Below are positions 3,670 to 62,870 of a stretch of DNA of 64,000 nucleotides, piece by piece. The stretch is taken from assembly GCF_030848395.1 (NCBI RefSeq), contig NZ_JAVDBT010000008.1, positions 62,001 to 126,000 of the forward strand, given 5' to 3'. This stretch comes from Pseudogemmobacter lacusdianii (GTDB lineage Bacteria; Pseudomonadota; Alphaproteobacteria; Rhodobacterales; Rhodobacteraceae). Position numbers and translations under genes: made by a program. Numbering within the stretch: the first letter of the stretch is position 1; every line of letters begins with the position of its first letter. Under the pieces are notes generated by a model. The model was not told the DNA's origin. It saw only the letters and a list, made by a program, of their open reading frames with translations, and did not search any database.

Positions 3670-4074
3670 TTAGTCTTCCTTCTTTTCGGCAAAGACGGCT
3701 TGCGCCAGCTCCAATGCCTTTTGCATGGCGGGCAAGCCGCCGAACATGCTCATCTGCCAGATCACCTCGGCGATTTCGCGCTCGGTGGCTCCGGCCTGCA
3801 AAGCATGGCGCACGGTGGCCTTAATCTGAGGCTCGGCCTGCGCGCCCAAGACGGTCAGCGCAGCCAAAGTGACGAAAAGCCGGGTTTTGGCGTCCAAGCC
3901 TTCGCGGTTGAAGGTCTTGCCAAACCACATCTCCATCATGTCCTTGGACATGGTGGGGAAAAGCTTGTCGAGCCCCGGCATCTGCATGTTTTCCAAAGCA
4001 GGGTTGAAAGAGCGCAGCATCTCTTGCCCGCTTTCCATCATCTGCTGGACCATCTTGCTGTAAGTCTCGGTCAT
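3670..4074 (-). CDS. carboxymuconolactone decarboxylase (CMD)-like protein
   Basis: 134 residues from ATG 4074. The C-terminal half shows the AhpD/CMD helical repeat ([18 protein letters not shown], then [19 protein letters not shown]). It lacks the CxxC pair of AhpD peroxidase-type members, so it resembles the gamma-carboxymuconolactone decarboxylase branch or a non-catalytic relative. The start overlaps the stop of the collagen-like gene by 4 bp (ATGA), implying coupled translation inside the nuo operon. No aromatic catabolism genes are nearby, so a decarboxylase role is unlikely; the true function is unknown. Confidence 0.75.
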
Positions 4075-41033: not shown

Positions 41034-41080
41034 TGGTGCCCCCAGAGGGGCTCGAACCCCCGACCCCCTGATTACAAATT
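41034..41080 (-). tRNA. 3' half of tRNA-Thr(UGU), left attachment site of prophage
   Basis: Read on the minus strand: TTTGTAATCAGGGGGTCGGG, then the T arm with GGTTCGAGCCCC, then acceptor CTGGGGGC and an encoded ACCA. The anticodon loop TTTGTAA gives UGU (Thr). The 5' half (D arm and 5' acceptor) is absent, and the next bases to the right do not pair, so this is a remnant. It is the expected attL: recombination in the anticodon arm would move the intact, functional tRNA to the right prophage end outside this window. Confidence 0.8.
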
Positions 41081-41216: not shown

Positions 41217-41229
41217 TGGATCAGTCCAA
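41217..41229 (+). repeat. first copy of TTGGAYYRATCCAA-type inverted repeat
   Basis: TGGATCAGTCCAA directly abuts AGGAGAGAG, the ribosome-binding site of the RNA polymerase N-half. Other copies: 44111, 44534, 46343, 52690, 54743 (plus strand); 57903 and 61901 (minus arm); half copies before GGAG at 50788, 56695 and 48714. Most sit just upstream of a start codon. The motif is AT/GC mixed and palindromic. Confidence 0.65.
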
Positions 41230-41241
41230 AGGAGAGAGACA

Positions 41242-42057
41242 GTGAAAGTGCAAGCGTGGTGGGCTGACATGCCAACCGAGCAACTTCGTGAGTCTGCATG
41301 GGAACGTCAGATGGGCGTGGCAGGGATGGAGGCTTTCGAGCAGTCCAGATACCGGGCTAACGGCACCCAGAAGGAGGCTTCGGAGACTTCGGCTGGACAG
41401 AAGCTCATGCGGAAGTTGCTCACCCGAGCGACCGAAGCCATCGAAAAGATGCAGGCTGAAATCATCGACAGGCACCGCGTCGAGCGGGCGGTCAAAGGCA
41501 CGGTCCTCATGGTCCCTGCTGACACCTGTGCGGTCATTGCCCTCAAGATCATCTTGGATCGGACCTTCACGATCATCAATGGGACCGATGGCTTCAGCTT
41601 CCAGACCATCTGCAAGGAAGTTGCCAAAGGCATCGAACTCGAACTCAATTTCCGCAACTGGGTGCGAAAGTCCAAGGAGTCGGCCAAGGCTTACGCTGAG
41701 GCCCAAGGATATAAGTCTGTCCCAAAGTCGATGGCCGAGAGGCTGATCGAAGATGAAGGCCGCGACCGTCAGTCGATCTGGCGATGGAAGAAAGCCTTTG
41801 CGGAACTGAACGAGTTCAAGTGGGACAACCTCGCCCAGCATTACTGTGGTGATGCCTTAGTGACCACGGTCGTTGAGGCCCTGCCCGACTGCTTCGTCTT
41901 CGTCTCTGAAATGCGGAGAGGCAAAGCCATGAAATACGTCCGCATGACCCCTGAACTTCGCAAGACCTTTGAAGAGATGGAAACCCGTATGGCCCGCCTT
42001 CAGGTCATCAAGAAACCCATGCTGTCCCGGCCCCGGCCTTGGAGGAAAGAAGACTAA
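41242..42057 (+). CDS. T7-type RNA polymerase, N-terminal half (separate gene)
   Basis: 271 residues from GTG 41242, with AAGGAGAGAG seven bases upstream. It corresponds to the N-terminal ~270 residues of T7 RNA polymerase (promoter-recognition and hybrid-binding part): LRESAWERQMGVAGMEAFEQ parallels the T7 REQLALEHESYEMGEARF region, and VRMTPELRKTFEEM with PMLSRPRPW parallels T7 ELAPEYAEAI and VVPPKPW. It stops right after PRPWRKED, where T7 continues into the next domain. The rest of the polymerase is encoded at 42293. TAATG couples it to a 64-residue ORF. Probably the first early gene. Confidence 0.88.
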   Translation: MKVQAWWADMPTEQLRESAWERQMGVAGMEAFEQSRYRANGTQKEASETSAGQKLMRKLLTRATEAIEKMQAEIIDRHRVERAVKGTVLMVPADTCAVIALKIILDRTFTIINGTDGFSFQTICKEVAKGIELELNFRNWVRKSKESAKAYAEAQGYKSVPKSMAERLIEDEGRDRQSIWRWKKAFAELNEFKWDNLAQHYCGDALVTTVVEALPDCFVFVSEMRRGKAMKYVRMTPELRKTFEEMETRMARLQVIKKPMLSRPRPWRKED

Positions 42058-42251
42058 TGCCTCACCCTCAGAAACCTCTGAAGTCTTACGATGAAGAAGA
42101 CTGGGAGGAATATTACGCCGACCCCCAAAACTTCGCCCGTATGTTCAGCGACTATGACTGTCTGCGGACACAGAAAGGCGACCTATCAACCTCCCAAGAG
42201 GCTCAATTGGACGTGATCCAACGGAGCATCGCCCAGCGCATTGCCCATTAA
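42057..42251 (+). CDS. small acidic ORF between the RNA polymerase halves
   Basis: 64 residues (MPHPQKPLKSYDEEDWEEYY at the N-terminus), overlapping the stop of the N-half by one base. It is acidic in its first half, with no membrane segment and no recognised family. It lies where a fused polymerase would be continuous, so it either came in with the split or is a partner of the two halves. Coding is supported by translational coupling only. Confidence 0.6.
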   Translation: MPHPQKPLKSYDEEDWEEYYADPQNFARMFSDYDCLRTQKGDLSTSQEAQLDVIQRSIAQRIAH

Positions 42252-42292
42252 GCGGCAAGAAGCAATCCCAACGTGAATTTCGAGGCTTGAGC

Positions 42293-44059
42293 ATGACTGT
42301 TCAATATGAAGGCGGCTATTTCATGATCCCTGAGCCTTTGGTTCGGGGCTACGGGCCAAACGCCCACACCGCAAAGGATATGACGAAGCTCTCTGGATAC
42401 ACCGTGGAGGCCGTCAATCACATCCAAGACACGCCTTGGCAGATCAACCCTATGATGTTCGATCTGATCACCCGCATCGCTGAGGAAGGCGCCAACCTAA
42501 CTCTAACGGCCCACGGCGAAGAGGAAGTGATCCTCCGAGTTGAGGAACCCGTGGACCCAAGGTCCTACGACCCGATCTTTGACGACATGACCAAGGAGGT
42601 CTGGGAAGGCTTAGAGGCCAAGGCCAAGCAAGAGTTCAAGTCCAAGAGGGCAAGAGCCTTGACCCGCTGGGAGGAAGAGCTTGGCGAATACCGAGCAACC
42701 CAACGCATCCTTGAGATGGCAAGGGAGATGGCTCAATTCGAGCTATTCTACTTCCCCCACAACCTCGACTTCAGAACCCGCATCTACCCGATCCCGACCG
42801 ACCTGACGCCGCAATCCAATGACCTCTCAAAAGGTCTTCTTCGGTTTGCCCGTCCATGCCGTTTGGGTAAGGAAGGGGTGTTCTGGATGGGCTTCACCGT
42901 GGCCTCACAATGGGGTGAGGACAAGCTATCCCCGGCTGACCGCTTCCGCTTTGCCTCTGAGGAAACCTTCTTCAAGCAATGCGAGGCTTGGGTCGATGAT
43001 CCTTATACCAACCGGGGCTGGCTCAAGGCTGACTCCCCATTCCAGTTCCTTGCTGTGGCCCATGAGTGGGTCTGGGCAATGCGCTCAAGTGACCCTGAGT
43101 CCTTCATGAGCAAACTGCCGGGGAACCTCGACGGCTCCTGCAACGGCGCTCAACACCTGTCTATCATGTCTCGGGACCTTGTGGGGGCCACCGCGACCAA
43201 CTGCCGTTCGGCTGAGAAGACAGGCAACAAACGGTTCGACCTCTACATGGAGGTCGCTGACCGGGTATGGGCAAGGGTCGAGCAGGATGCCGCCCAAGGA
43301 GAGGCTGTGGCGCTTGAGTGGGTGCCTAAGATGATGAACCCGAGTGATCGTCGCAAGGTGGTCAAACGGGCTGTCATGACGGTTCCCTATGGGGTCACGG
43401 AGTATGGTGTTGCTGAGTTCATGATCAAGGACAAGCACGTCGAGCGGGACCGCTGGGACGCTGCTAAATACATGCGGGACCTGATCATGGAGTCCATTGA
43501 CGCCACTATGGCTGAGGGCCGGAAGCTGCAACGCTGGTTCCAAGCCTGTGCCGTGAAGTGCGCCCAAGCTGGTCTGCCCCTGATCTGGGACACCCCGGCT
43601 GGGTCCAAGGTGACTCAAGCCTATCGGAACGTCATCCAGAAACGCATCCAATCCTTCTCTGCCAAGTTCTACGTCTACGAAGAACCCACGGCTGACGAGG
43701 ACGAAGAAGACTTCCTTCGCCGGATCGGGATGGACGAAAAGAAGATGGGAACAGCGGCCCCGCCAAACGTGGTCCATAGCTGCGATGCTTCGCACCTTCA
43801 GATCACGACCTGCCGGATGGCTGATGCTGGGATCAAAGACTTCTCAATGATCCATGACAGCTTTGGTTGCCACTTTGCCCACATGAGTCTGATGCGGGAA
43901 ATCCTGCTTCAGTCAATCGTGGACATGTATGCCGACAACTATCTGGAACGCTGGAAGGAGTCGGTCGAGCGTTATAGCGGCCTGACAATGCCTGAGCCGC
44001 CTCAGTTGGGTCAGTTTGACCTGAATGAAATCCTCGGAAGCGAGTTCTGCTTCTCTTGA
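42293..44059 (+). CDS. T7-type RNA polymerase, catalytic C-terminal half (separate gene)
   Basis: 588 residues from ATG 42293 (GAGG seven bases upstream; a TTG two codons earlier is less likely). It begins MTVQYEGGYFMIPEPLVR, matching T7 GGGYWANGRRPLALVR just after the break. Catalytic motifs are present: HNLDFRTRIYPI, NLDGSCNGAQHLS (motif A Asp, T7 D537), RKVVKRAVMTVPYG (Lys631 and Tyr639 equivalents), VHSCDASHL and IHDSFG (D812 equivalent). The C-terminus ILGSEFCFS parallels T7 ILESDFAFA. With the N-half the total is ~859 residues, against 883 in T7. Nothing essential is missing, so the pair probably forms an active two-subunit enzyme. Confidence 0.95.
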   Translation: MTVQYEGGYFMIPEPLVRGYGPNAHTAKDMTKLSGYTVEAVNHIQDTPWQINPMMFDLITRIAEEGANLTLTAHGEEEVILRVEEPVDPRSYDPIFDDMTKEVWEGLEAKAKQEFKSKRARALTRWEEELGEYRATQRILEMAREMAQFELFYFPHNLDFRTRIYPIPTDLTPQSNDLSKGLLRFARPCRLGKEGVFWMGFTVASQWGEDKLSPADRFRFASEETFFKQCEAWVDDPYTNRGWLKADSPFQFLAVAHEWVWAMRSSDPESFMSKLPGNLDGSCNGAQHLSIMSRDLVGATATNCRSAEKTGNKRFDLYMEVADRVWARVEQDAAQGEAVALEWVPKMMNPSDRRKVVKRAVMTVPYGVTEYGVAEFMIKDKHVERDRWDAAKYMRDLIMESIDATMAEGRKLQRWFQACAVKCAQAGLPLIWDTPAGSKVTQAYRNVIQKRIQSFSAKFYVYEEPTADEDEEDFLRRIGMDEKKMGTAAPPNVVHSCDASHLQITTCRMADAGIKDFSMIHDSFGCHFAHMSLMREILLQSIVDMYADNYLERWKESVERYSGLTMPEPPQLGQFDLNEILGSEFCFS

Positions 44060-44065
44060 GGACAA

Positions 44066-44099
44066 AAGTGTCACCGTAAAAGGACTGACACAGGGTAAG
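44066..44099 (+). promoter_or_regulatory. T7-like phage promoter, copy 1
   Basis: TAAAAGGACTGACACAGGG (from 44078) aligns with the T7 promoter start TAATACGACTCAC at 10 of 13 positions and ends in GGG, as T7 does at +1, with one base less between. It is preceded by AAGTGTCACCG, so GTGTCA and TGACAC also form an inverted repeat. It lies directly after the polymerase gene, as T7 class II promoters do. Confidence 0.6.
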
Positions 44100-44135
44100 G
44101 ATCGCTCCAATGGATCGGTCCAAGCTCAGCCTTTG

Positions 44136-44169
44136 AAGTGTCACCGTAAACGGACTGACACAGGGCAAG
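44136..44169 (+). promoter_or_regulatory. T7-like phage promoter, copy 2
   Basis: Second copy (TAAACGGACTGACACAGGG) exactly 70 bp after the first, differing at one position in the core and after GGG. The strict conservation in noncoding DNA argues for function. No third copy was seen up to 57 kb on the plus strand or in the minus arm within the window. Confidence 0.6.
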
Positions 44170-44219
44170 AATCCCAACCTTTAAATCCAAAGGCCCGTGG
44201 GCCAACGATGGAGAACACC

Positions 44220-44810: not shown

Positions 44811-45416
44811 ATGGCAAGATTCGAGTTCAAAACCCACGTCAGTCCGAAGGTTGAGGCCATGTGGTGCTTCCTTTCGGCACCCCAAGCGCCCTTCAAAGAG
44901 GGGGCTGCTGCAATGTATGCCATCACGGGTATTTTGGACGACACCGAAGACAACCGTGCGTGGATCGACGGCATCATCTCAACGGCTCAAGCCGAGGCTA
45001 AGAAGGCCGGGGTGAAGCTGAAGAAGGTCTTCCACAACCCCTTCGAGTTCCCCGAGGACGTTGACGAGGATGAATACCTTGTTGACCCCGCGACCGGAAA
45101 GTCGAAACGGCCAGAACAATTCCGTGGTAAGATCATCTTCAAGGCGAAGACCCAGTTCCAGCCGGGTCAGATTGACTCCGCCCGTGTGGACCTCCCACCG
45201 GATGTGAAGATTTTCGGCGGCGACATCGTGAAGATCAAATTCGCGGCTGAGCCTTACGAGAATGGCGCTAACAGCGGTATCACCCTCCGGCTCCGCACCG
45301 TCCAGTTGCTTGAGAAGCGCACTTCGTTCAACCGTGGCCCGGACACCGATGGCTTCGAGGATGAAGATGGCTATCGCGCTGGTGGCGGTGGTGGTGAAGG
45401 ACACGAAGACTTCTGA
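44811..45416 (+). CDS. single-stranded DNA-binding protein, T7 gp2.5-like
   Basis: 201 residues. Length, the early aromatic/basic region and the very acidic, Gly-rich tail ending in aromatic Phe (RAGGGGGEGHEDF) fit phage gp2.5-type SSB (DUF2815). QFRGKIIFKAKTQFQPG and LPPDVKIFGGDIVKIKFAAE are OB-fold-like strands. It protects ssDNA and recruits DNA polymerase and helicase through its tail. Its TGA overlaps the RusA start (TGATG). Confidence 0.85.
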   Translation: MARFEFKTHVSPKVEAMWCFLSAPQAPFKEGAAAMYAITGILDDTEDNRAWIDGIISTAQAEAKKAGVKLKKVFHNPFEFPEDVDEDEYLVDPATGKSKRPEQFRGKIIFKAKTQFQPGQIDSARVDLPPDVKIFGGDIVKIKFAAEPYENGANSGITLRLRTVQLLEKRTSFNRGPDTDGFEDEDGYRAGGGGGEGHEDF

Positions 45417-51053: not shown

Positions 51054-51811
51054 TGGCAAAGATCACCGCGTTCATCGACGCCGACATTCTGCTCTATCGG
51101 GCAGCTTCGTTCTGCGACGACGAGTTCGATGGTGAACCTATGAGAGACGTGCGTCAGGCAATGACCATGTTCGACATGCTGCTGAAGAAGTGGCTCAAGG
51201 ATGTCGAGAAGGCGGTGAAGCTGGATGACTACTTCTTGGTTGTGTCCAAGGGTAGAACCTTCAGGAAGGACCTGTATCCCGAATACAAGGCCAACCGGAA
51301 GGACATCAAGCCTCACCCCGTCCTCTTCCCCTTGAAAGACGAAGTGATGGAGCTTCAGGCTACCATCTGGGAAGACGACATGGAGGCCGACGACCTGATC
51401 GGCATTAGGGTCACTGAAGACCCCTCCATGCGTCTCGCCGTCTCTGCCGACAAGGACTTCGCAACGCTTCCCTGTCAGTTGTTCACCCCAGCCTCACATG
51501 GGAAGACCCAAGGGTCACTCACGTCCTACAACGAGGACGAGGCTAACTGGAACTGGCTGATCCAAGCCATGACCGGGGACACCATCGACAATTACAAAGG
51601 CATCCCCGGAGTGGGGCCGAAGAAGGCCGCTAAGGTCATACCAGCCCCTGCCCCATTGGATGTCATGTGGCCTGCTGTTGAGCGGGCTTTCATCGACGCA
51701 AAGATGACCAAGGACGATGCCCTAACGATGGCCCGCTTGGCTCGGATTTTACGTCACGGCGATTACAATTTTGAGACCAAGGAAACGAAGCTATGGACAC
51801 CTTCAAGGTAG
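51053..51811 (+). CDS. 5'-3' exonuclease, FEN/T7 gp6-like
   Basis: 252 residues. FIDADILLYRAA holds the first metal Asp, EDDMEADDLIGI and VSADKDFATLPCQ the acidic cluster, and GDTIDNYKGIPGVGPKKAAK the helix-3-turn-helix DNA-binding motif. It would remove RNA primers and degrade host or branch DNA ends. It overlaps the next frame by 19 bp. Confidence 0.88.
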   Translation: MAKITAFIDADILLYRAASFCDDEFDGEPMRDVRQAMTMFDMLLKKWLKDVEKAVKLDDYFLVVSKGRTFRKDLYPEYKANRKDIKPHPVLFPLKDEVMELQATIWEDDMEADDLIGIRVTEDPSMRLAVSADKDFATLPCQLFTPASHGKTQGSLTSYNEDEANWNWLIQAMTGDTIDNYKGIPGVGPKKAAKVIPAPAPLDVMWPAVERAFIDAKMTKDDALTMARLARILRHGDYNFETKETKLWTPSR

Positions 51812-52350
51812 GTGATCTGGTCGAGTGCGTGAGCAAGGACCCCCTTACCTCCCGCCTGCACAACGGCAATCTCTATACGATCACCAGAATTGCGAATGGG
51901 TTCTGTTGTGTATGGGATGAATATGGAGATGAATCTGGGTGGTATCCACACCGCTTCAAGAAGGTTGGGCAACCGACCGCTGGGATCAACCCTAAGGACG
52001 CCATAGGCTCCCTGAAGCCCTCCCTCCGGTTCGTCCCTATGGCCCCGATCTACATGGCCGGGGAGGCTATGGCGGATGGTGCGGAGAAGTATGGCCCCTT
52101 CAACTGGCGTGAACAGCCTGTGAACGGCTCGGTCTACTTCGATGCCGCCCAGCGCCACTTGAACCAATGGTTCCACGGGAATGACCGGGCTGAGGACTCC
52201 AATGTCCACCACCTCGCTCACGCCATCGCCTGTCTGCTGATCATTCTGGATGCCGAAACCCAAGGCACCCTGAACGACGACCGACCGAAGATTGGTAAGC
52301 CTCTGGATGACTTCATCGCAGCCAACACCAAGACCAAGGTGGCGGCATGA
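51793..52350 (+). CDS. dATP/dGTP diphosphohydrolase-like (DUF5664) protein
   Basis: 185 residues. A small N-terminal domain (FKVGDLVECVSKDPLTS) is followed by GINPKDAIGSLKPSLRFVP, ADGAEKYGPFNWREQ, RHLNQWFHGNDRAEDS and HHLAHAIACLLIILDAE, the DUF5664 / dATP-dGTP diphosphohydrolase N-terminal pattern of HD/MazG-like phage enzymes. It may adjust the dNTP pool. It overlaps the exonuclease end and the next gene by a few bases. Confidence 0.75.
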   Translation: MDTFKVGDLVECVSKDPLTSRLHNGNLYTITRIANGFCCVWDEYGDESGWYPHRFKKVGQPTAGINPKDAIGSLKPSLRFVPMAPIYMAGEAMADGAEKYGPFNWREQPVNGSVYFDAAQRHLNQWFHGNDRAEDSNVHHLAHAIACLLIILDAETQGTLNDDRPKIGKPLDDFIAANTKTKVAA

Positions 52351-60285: not shown

Positions 60286-60900
60286 TCACACCACCTTGAA
60301 GTAAATGTCCCCATTAGCGCCTCCTGTCGGGTCGGCGGCGCCAAAGGAGAAGGCCCGGTTAGCCATGGTTCCCACAGCATCCAACTTCGTCTTGTCCTCT
60401 TTGGACATGAGGCCGTCAGCGGTTTGTGAAGCATTACTAAGGACAGGGGTAGGTCCTGTTGGGCCAATATCCCCTTTATCACCCTTATCACCCTTATCGC
60501 CTTTATCGCCTTTGACGCCTTGGATACCTTGGATACCCTGAGGACCTGCCTCGCCTTGAATACCTTGGATACCCGGAGGACCCTGAGGACCTTCATCCCC
60601 CTTGTCCCCTTTATCGCCCTTATCGCCTTTGACGCCTTGGAGACCTTGGATACCTTGGATACCCTGAGGACCTTCATCCCCCTTGTCCCCTTTATCGCCT
60701 TTATCGCCTTTGACGCCTTGAGGTCCTGCTGGGCCTTCTGGTCCTATGAGTGAGGCTAAATAGTCATCTAGGGTGCCTGTGTTACCGACTGAGAGCCAGA
60801 GGTCGTATGCGTTATCAATCGTGAGTAAGAACCTCTCGAAGAGTTCCTGATCACGTTTTTGACCACCCCGCAGTGCGTAGAAGGAAGTGCTTTCTTTCAT
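60286..60900 (-). CDS. collagen-like tail fibre protein
   Basis: 204 residues. The N-terminal ~50 residues (KRDQELFERFLLTIDNAYDL) probably attach to the tail. Gly-X-Y triplets run from ~52 to 150, including GDKGDKGDKGDEGPQGIQG repeated units (the 72-bp DNA repeat is near-perfect). The tail ends with ADGLMSKEDKTKLDAVG and FGAADPTGGANGDIYFKV, the standard phage fibre C-terminal module. It probably binds the host surface. Confidence 0.85.
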   Translation of the reverse strand: MKESTSFYALRGGQKRDQELFERFLLTIDNAYDLWLSVGNTGTLDDYLASLIGPEGPAGPQGVKGDKGDKGDKGDEGPQGIQGIQGLQGVKGDKGDKGDKGDEGPQGPPGIQGIQGEAGPQGIQGIQGVKGDKGDKGDKGDKGDIGPTGPTPVLSNASQTADGLMSKEDKTKLDAVGTMANRAFSFGAADPTGGANGDIYFKVV

Positions 60901-61949: not shown

Positions 61950-62870
61950 TTAGGTCAGGTTGGTGATCAGGGCGGTGGCCTGTTTGTTGTTGTGCTTCAG
62001 GCCGAACTCACCAAGCATCATCCAACGCTCAGCGTCACCGACTTTCGCCAGCTTCTCGCGGAACCAGTTACGACCCTTCAGGACAGCCAGCTTCCAGTTG
62101 GCCGGATCGTAGAGCAGCGCATCGGAAGCACGGAGGCGGCGGTTCTTGACCACTCGCACAGTGCCGAACGGCGACTCATAGACGTTGACCACGTTGGTCA
62201 GCTTGGTGTCACCGTTGTCGGTGGTGTGGGTCCGACCCGAGGATTGCAGCCAGCCTGCGATCAGCTTCGAGTCCGAAGGCTTGATCATCAGCGTGGTGGC
62301 ATCCGAACCAGCGTTGTAGAGCTTCTCGTGAGCCGAGATGACCGCAGTCTCAGTCAACGGGCCAGCTTGGTTGCCAGCAGTCGAGCCGTCCGAGTCGATG
62401 GTTACGGTCACAGCCGAGTCGATCTGAGCTTGAACACCAGCGAACTCGCCAGCAACAGCACCAGCAGCGGCGACATAGGTCTGACCAGTGCCGACCAGAG
62501 AGTGTTCAAGGTCCATCTTCAGGAGCTTGCCAGTCTTCATGGTCTCACGGGCGGTCACTTTATCACGGCCATAGAGCTTCACGGCGTCAGCGGTCCCCGA
62601 GACTTTGAAGGTCTCTTCGAGGATTTGAGTGCCGTTCTGACGCATGGTCGGCTGGTCGCGGTTGCTGTCAGCGGCGTCAGCGCCTTCGAGCTTGGCGTTC
62701 TTAGCGACAGCCCGCAGTTGGTCTTCCATCCACTGGTAGAGCGTGTTCTCGACGGTCTCAGTCTTGATCGAAGACAGGAACGGAGTGTCGCTCGGGGTGA
62801 TCATGGAGATGTAGTCCGAGACCTCTTCTTTTTTGCCAACGAGGTCGAACGTCTTCAGGTGAGTGGGCAT
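61950..62870 (-). CDS. major capsid protein, DUF5309/SU10-type HK97 fold
   Basis: 306 residues. KKEEVSDYISMITPSDTPFL and the later KTETVENTLYQWMEDQLRAV open the DUF5309 (SU10 MCP) family. FGTVRVVKNRRLRASDALLY and PANWKLAVLKGRNWFREKLA are the C-terminal family blocks. This capsid type differs from T7 gp10, although the replication genes are T7-like. It is flanked by the scaffold gene (9 bp) and the terminator. Confidence 0.85.
   Translation of the reverse strand: MPTHLKTFDLVGKKEEVSDYISMITPSDTPFLSSIKTETVENTLYQWMEDQLRAVAKNAKLEGADAADSNRDQPTMRQNGTQILEETFKVSGTADAVKLYGRDKVTARETMKTGKLLKMDLEHSLVGTGQTYVAAAGAVAGEFAGVQAQIDSAVTVTIDSDGSTAGNQAGPLTETAVISAHEKLYNAGSDATTLMIKPSDSKLIAGWLQSSGRTHTTDNGDTKLTNVVNVYESPFGTVRVVKNRRLRASDALLYDPANWKLAVLKGRNWFREKLAKVGDAERWMMLGEFGLKHNNKQATALITNLT

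Follow-up and report, generated by a model that had tools for sequence, protein, structure and literature searches.

The RNA polymerase (RNAP) of bacteriophage T7 is the textbook example of a polymerase made of one chain; much biotechnology is built on it, and it has been split in laboratories for logic gates. Here we analyze a T7-type polymerase that is encoded by two separate genes in a prophage of Pseudogemmobacter lacusdianii (Rhodobacteraceae); the window, that is, the whole stretch of DNA analyzed, comprises 64,000 nucleotides (positions 62,001 to 126,000 of contig NZ_JAVDBT010000008.1), and plain coordinates refer to it. The closest described system is RNAPII of phage N4, a working heterodimer of gp15 and gp16 encoded by two adjacent early genes, which requires the single-stranded DNA (ssDNA)-binding cofactor gp2; N4 possesses a virion polymerase along with the two-subunit one (PMC4496689). 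Insertion of an endonuclease has been proposed for the split of the N4-type RNAP (PMC5418858), and genes broken into pieces by homing endonucleases, namely, Aeh1 nrdA, T4 gene 60 and DNA polymerase 43A/43B, yield one enzyme that reassembles from the products of two genes (PMC2988022). Artificially split T7 RNAP regains promoter-specific activity when its fragments are co-expressed (PMC4299498, PMC4299499); the split points named there are 67, 179 and 601, compared with about 278-283 and 297-300 for the natural cuts described below, but five seams were mapped in all, and overlap is possible. In the open-access literature, to the extent that it was available and exclusive of subscription papers and bioRxiv, no natural split of a T7-type polymerase was found outside N4-type phages.

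The prophage polymerase can also be compared with those of the temperate T7-like phages LUZ100, Rhizobium phage RHEph21 and Roseobacter phage CRP-227, which belong to the same family and likewise have an integrase nearby and an ssDNA-binding protein downstream; however, these are encoded by one gene and are 30-32% identical to it over the catalytic part (tblastn). A single-subunit polymerase is the hallmark of Autographiviridae (PMC10134795), and the polymerase in the window is split.

The polymerase genes and the place of the cut

The locus consists of two polymerase genes and an open reading frame (ORF) between them:

41242-42057, + strand: N-half of the T7-type RNAP, promoter-binding N-terminal domain, GTG start, 271 amino acids (aa)
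42057-42251, + strand: middle ORF, 64 aa, predicted three-helix protein without a known family
42293-44059, + strand: catalytic half (C-linker, thumb, palm, fingers), 588 aa

The ORF coordinates and the positions of the start codons and ribosome-binding sites bear out the sequence-only reading in that there are two separate genes with a 64-codon ORF in between. The ATG of the middle ORF overlaps the stop codon of the N-half (TAATG) and is preceded by GGAGG. The catalytic half has a modest GAGG ribosome-binding site, and its best start is the ATG at 42293; the length of about 590 aa given for it earlier relied on the TTG at 42287. The N-half matches Pfam RPOL_N (E-value 1.5e-8) and positions 7-246 of the 816 positions of the PHROG family phrog_414 (RNA polymerase; E-value 3.1e-21), whereas the catalytic half covers positions 278-816 of the latter (E-value 4.9e-149) and matches PF00940 (E-value 3.3e-84). 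The predicted fold of the N-half on its own (predicted local distance difference test, pLDDT, 86.2) includes a beta hairpin at residues 217-234 of the model, and its top fold matches in the PDB are T7 RNAP elongation complexes (E-value 3.5e-7, 253-267 alignment columns).

In the alignment with fused relatives, the end of the N-half and the beginning of the catalytic half (..SRPRPW RKED-stop and M TVQYEGGYF) match the continuous ..PPRPW TSPF EGGYW: the N-half ends four residues past the PPxPW block and the catalytic half begins right before GGYW. The two halves together reproduce the fused sequence at the junction, and therefore no block of residues is missing. In T7 numbering, PPKPW occupies residues 274-278 and GGGYW begins at 283, so that the cut lies between W278 and G283, at the domain border where it had been placed. 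All residues checked, namely, the counterparts of T7 D537, Y571, R627, K631, Y639, H784, H811 and D812, are retained across the halves, in line with the claim that no catalytic motif is lost and both halves appear intact. Thus, the catalytic residues and the N-terminal promoter-binding domain of the T7-type family are present, although on two polypeptides instead of one. Searching the whole genome with the catalytic half identified this single locus, to which a later profile search added a distant giant polymerase (see below).

The polymerase resembles N4 RNAPII in that two genes together cover a T7-type polymerase, but the place of the cut differs. In N4, the cut lies between DxxGR and motif A, with the N-terminal domain shortened (PMC4496689): DxxGR is on gp15, together with a GGY-like block that aligns weakly, and gp16 sets in near position 454 of a T7-like profile. 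The cut in the window is roughly 170 residues earlier. N4 RNAPII was aptly named as the precedent, but its cut lies elsewhere.

Conservation and spread of the split

The window protein alone, used as the query, retrieved no viral contig and four candidate genome stretches, none of which is a relative, so that profiles were needed. Within the clade, the cut recurs at the same place in six other contigs: L172, L012, L013, L175 and L180 from IMG/VR, and L092 from a Paracoccus metagenome-assembled genome, with L013 covering just the end of the N-half. In five contigs each, the N-halves are 41-49% identical to that in the window and the catalytic halves 58-68% (best segments; no percentage for L180). 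Many distant pairs of the halves are saturated with substitutions; the ratios of nonsynonymous to synonymous substitutions (dN/dS) come from close usable pairs: 0.19 for the N-half (L012-L175) and 0.10 for the first exon of the catalytic half (L013-L175). For the middle ORF, dN/dS is 0.13-0.43 among three close pairs, 0.21-0.25 for the window against the same three and 0.75 for the window against L172. In the usable pairs, both halves evolve under purifying selection. The claim of a naturally split, intact polymerase holds up on these grounds, together with the retention of the catalytic residues; the opposite scenario, in which relatives lack the middle ORF and are fused while the copy in the window has decayed, was not found, because L092 and L180, which lack the middle ORF, are split too. 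In genome searches that include the genome of origin, the catalytic half was detected in 4 and the N-half in 1 of the 394 genomes of the family at 1e-10; the clade profile matched 1 of 13 genomes of the genus, and a second profile 3 of 385 genomes of the class at 1e-40.

A wider collection of 339 loci was compiled from seven profile scans and other searches, which were aimed at relatives and partly restricted to the best 80, so that the counts are not natural frequencies. It includes 203 fused polymerases (193 distinct catalytic sequences), 125 loci called split, 6 cut off at the start, 4 others (2 of these being N4 records) and 1 weak match. Removed from the split loci were L097, a draft contig with several frameshifts in which the junction itself is fused, three contigs broken at another site (L247, L256 and L257) and 10 loci that repeat contigs or sequences counted before. 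The remaining 111 distinct split loci, besides the window, are hard to reconcile with the notion of a unique split: 34, including the six clade contigs, are cut where the window polymerase is (site 1), and 77 are cut after T7 residues 297-300, about 20 residues further on (site 2), with 33 and 61 distinct catalytic sequences, respectively. The site-2 loci all come from viral contigs found in two scans. Among the matches listed, the best named phage is 39.4% identical for site 2 and 38.3% for site 1 (query L095); six named phages that were read closely (L005-L010) all encode fused polymerases. The three contigs set aside, which represent two distinct sequences 89% identical to each other, are broken just before DxxGR (L247:1575-1591; L256 and L257 near 3897-3913), with a stop codon followed 11 nt later by a new ATG in another frame, and this break is a candidate third split site. 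None of the surveyed splits, at site 1, site 2 or before DxxGR, coincides with the gp15/gp16 cut of N4.

The arrangement of the halves differs between the two sites. The gaps, counted to the first methionine of the open frame, range from -61 to 1,767 nt, the maximum being reached at site 1; at site 2, 66 of the 77 gene pairs overlap or lie within 3 nt, and at least 31 overlap by 4 nt.

For a tree of the catalytic region, 13 loci and partial catalytic regions were excluded, and of the 210 representatives 111 were used (all 49 split and 62 of the 161 fused); the tree was built by a quick method and rooted at the midpoint. Site 2 forms one clade with support of 100, whereas all 24 site-1 rows fall within one 30-row group (support 91) that also holds six fused rows. 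Splitting most likely happened at least twice, because sites 1 and 2 are far apart in the tree. Site 1 requires five changes of state, at least two of them imposed by well-supported branches, and may have originated once, followed by re-fusions, or several times. The 36-row clade around this group contains 12 fused polymerases, in which the linker at the cut spot comprises 8-28 residues, compared with 5 residues in 123 of the 144 other fused polymerases, as if the linker had loosened before the split. On this comparative evidence, the two-gene T7-type polymerase is real and conserved, and it is far more widespread than first supposed; the split looks like a stable way to build the enzyme and not like a broken gene.

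How the two chains may work

The locus most probably encodes a two-subunit, heterodimeric T7-type RNAP, a reading in which assembly, the need for both chains and promoter use are inferred from sequences, models and analogy. Chain 1 (271 aa) would provide the promoter-binding N-terminal domain and chain 2 (588 aa) the C-linker, thumb, palm, fingers and specificity loop; each would be translated from its own start codon, and the two would assemble non-covalently into one promoter-specific enzyme that transcribes the early and replication genes of the phage. T7 RNAP contacts promoter DNA through parts located on either side of this cut, and therefore both chains should be needed. The distances among N-halves and among catalytic halves agree closely (r = 0.92 for 24 site-1 loci and 0.89 for 22 site-2 loci; none of 2000 permutations is as high). 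The proposal that the halves assemble is upheld as probable, with N4 RNAPII and artificially split T7 RNAP as precedents.

The regulation of the two genes may involve a 17-nt element that recurs in the early region:

41217-41233, + strand: 17-nt near-palindrome TGGATCAGTCCAAAGGA, which overlaps the N-half ribosome-binding site
44535, 46343, 47859, 55683 and 56688, + strand: further matches to the 17-nt element

Over both strands there are nine matches, some of which are the two strands of one site, compared with 0.53 expected, and none of 100 shuffles reaches nine. With up to three mismatches allowed, the element is present at most 60 nt before the N-half in all six assessable clade loci, and before the catalytic half in six of the seven, the window being the exception; these positions suggest that, in the relatives, each half is under its own control. 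The element could serve as a promoter or operator or as a signal for translation. Its readings as a T7-style promoter and as a hairpin are equally tentative, and the hairpin stem would be broken by the TAGA..TCCA variants. Thus, the 'T7-like promoter surroundings' reported earlier could not be confirmed as such; what is found instead is this recurrent near-palindrome that overlaps ribosome-binding sites.

Several observations weigh against the heterodimer. The N-half is less conserved than the catalytic half; in the window, the latter lacks the upstream element that its six relatives have and is preceded only by the modest ribosome-binding site; and at site 1, the genes are more than 100 nt apart in 25 of the 34 pairs, whereas 6 overlap or nearly touch. 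The congruent histories of the halves would also follow from simple co-inheritance. Furthermore, when T7 RNAP is cut at 179, the DNA-binding part resides on the C-terminal fragment and the N-terminal fragment is needed for elongation (PMC4299499). Together with N4 RNAPII, which functions with a much shortened N-terminal part and a required cofactor (PMC4496689), the wide gaps at site 1 could indicate that the halves are not one enzyme at all, the catalytic half alone being a less specific polymerase and the N-half a separate DNA-binding regulator. We consider this quite improbable, given that the N-half retains its fold, including the beta hairpin, and aligns with T7 RNAP for the greater part of its sequence, and that the genes at site 2 overlap or adjoin as those of subunits do. 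A different modification of the heterodimer would add the 64-residue middle protein as a third subunit or assembly factor needed by the enzyme of this clade. Homologs of the middle ORF lie between the halves in L012, L013, L175 and L172, that is, with the window, in five of the seven clade loci; they are 36-39% identical to the window copy, with the W, Y, P.NF and F.DY positions invariant in all five, the three-helix model is confident (pLDDT 85.6), and the TAATG junction couples the ORF to the N-half in the window. Nevertheless, the middle ORF is absent from the L180 and L092 loci; neither the rest of the L180 record nor the genome holding L092 yielded it at E-values up to 10, and at other split loci the gap holds different genes or none. 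The protein has no family in Pfam and PHROG scans and no fold match at an E-value of 0.001 or better, and a sequence search of the PDB gave one match with an E-value of 0.6. Because it is missing from two of the seven split clade loci, the middle ORF is not a general subunit; as a necessary partner it is not supported, and even a required role confined to this clade is improbable, if somewhat less so than separate functions of the halves. In our reading, the gap harbors no general subunit; it is a favored spot in which these phages often accommodate additional genes, and the middle gene would be one of these, encoding a small clade-specific protein.

The other two explanations concern the split itself. 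If the frames were joined by an intron, a frameshift or read-through, one chain would be made after all. Splicing does occur in this lineage: group I introns interrupt the catalytic gene at motif B in L013 and L175 (RF00028, 79 and 77 bits; L174:1467-1723 and L175:3193-3398), and the 4-nt overlaps at site 2 might be taken to hint at coupling of the frames. At the junction, however, no intron was matched in the window (E-values up to 5), in L174 and L175 (E-values up to 1) or in L172, L173 and L180 (gathering scores); the gaps of L180 (31 nt) and L092 (-8 nt) leave no room for an intron; both halves possess a start codon of their own; and the frame offsets 0, 1 and 2 vary freely, being found in 13, 12 and 9 loci at site 1 and in 18, 12 and 47 loci at site 2. 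Given the variation in spacing and in frame, and with no intron detected at the junctions tested, a hidden single chain is very unlikely; frameshifting and read-through are rejected given the varying frame relations. Integrated phages often decay and the observation began in a single genome, so that a decayed gene or an assembly error had to be considered as well. This explanation, which has a vanishingly small probability, is refuted by the conserved relatives: seven separate assemblies have the same split, the dN/dS values of both halves in the usable pairs are well below 1, the catalytic residues are intact, and the prophage retains an integrase, portal, terminase, major head, scaffold and replication genes.

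With regard to the origin of the split, no endonuclease family was recognized in the middle ORF or in the nine scanned gap ORFs of relatives, and in this respect the locus differs from genes split by homing endonucleases, which have an endonuclease gene at the split. Two of the other split loci carry anti-repressor (Ant) genes between the polymerase halves (L195:753-1604 and L203:1089-1673).

Two well-sampled lineages, and possibly a third, cut at places other than that of N4, are described here and provide natural pairs for comparison. Such pairs would reveal the interfaces that hold a split polymerase together and the reasons for the position of the cut, and could serve as ready-made split enzymes. 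A broader interpretation, which we regard as possible but doubtful, is that natural splitting recurs at the flexible join between the promoter-binding domain and the catalytic body, with at least two origins outside N4 and perhaps more, because two chains under separate control work as an AND gate for a polymerase that is self-amplifying and toxic; and that, with a giant and probably virion-carried polymerase paired with it in this clade, a 44-kb temperate phage has independently reached the program of N4, a virion polymerase plus a two-subunit one.

The prophage and its giant second polymerase

The following features complete the picture of the prophage and its surroundings:

41034-41079, no strand assigned: attL, a partial tRNA-Thr remnant of 46 bp, 93% identical to the attR copy
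G000:C48:147440-147485: attR, inside an intact tRNA-Thr gene
44066-44103 and 44136-44173 (span 44066-44173), + strand: two 38-nt direct repeats AAGTGTCACCGTAAA...GACTGACACAGGG, 92% identical, directly 3' of the catalytic half
44811-45416: gp2.5-type ssDNA-binding protein
L184:4559-9682 = G000:C48:130559-135682, right of the window, - strand: protein of 1,707 residues encoded in the structural module, its C-terminal domain being of the T7 polymerase family; also in L357 and L358

The attL/attR pair, the integrase that adjoins the attR tRNA-Thr and the 44.4-kb extent between the att sites establish the prophage setting that the sequence-only reading had assigned; about half of the prophage extends right of the window. 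The 38-nt repeats have inverted ends, GTGTCA..TGACAC. The gene set comprises a portal (phrog_1216), terminase, major head (phrog_1328), scaffold, primase-helicase, DNA polymerase, ssDNA-binding protein and RusA, with the early genes on the + strand and the structural genes on the - strand. The portal of N4 likewise belongs to phrog_1216, and in both genomes the structural genes, including that of a giant polymerase protein, are opposite in strand to the early genes. In contrast, the major head protein of N4 belongs to phrog_1357, and its genome is 70 kb compared with 44.4 kb here. Schitoviridae genomes are 59-90 kb (PMC8878043); the prophage shares the portal family but neither the virion polymerase family phrog_2206 nor the major head family nor the genome size.

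The C-terminal part of the giant protein matches PHROG 414 (6e-18), and in a profile-profile comparison the probability is 98.9% (E-value 1e-17), compared with 0.1-0.4% for four controls, which are single sequences and therefore have less power. The copies from the window prophage and from the L180 and L172 records each have recognizable motif A, B and C positions. Searched against named phages with tblastn, the giant protein gave just weak matches to ordinary phage polymerases in eight Vibrio phage records. In a search of 42 records, which include these three, no other match of the giant type was detected in L173 (17 kb), L175 (10 kb), 20 other site-1, 5 site-2 and 8 fused viral records, L247 and 3 named fused phages, several of them fragments. 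The protein falls outside phrog_2206, the N4 virion polymerase family (3,406 positions), its family match being phrog_414; it does not match residues 1-1675 and 998-2103 of the N4 protein, a comparison of low power given that the T7-like profile missed the N4 stretch too. Judging by the domain match, the giant protein is a candidate virion RNA polymerase; alongside the split enzyme it forms an N4-like pair of polymerases, and it raises the testable question of how these temperate phages start transcription.

The window protein encoded at 51793-52350 is labeled 'endolysin; inhibits RNA polymerase' in PHROG (1.9e-44), a name that is doubtful because the same residues match a dATP/dGTP pyrophosphohydrolase family. 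At 60460-60753, repeats are spaced by multiples of 9 nt and correspond, by eye, to a collagen-like Gly-X-X stretch on the - strand.

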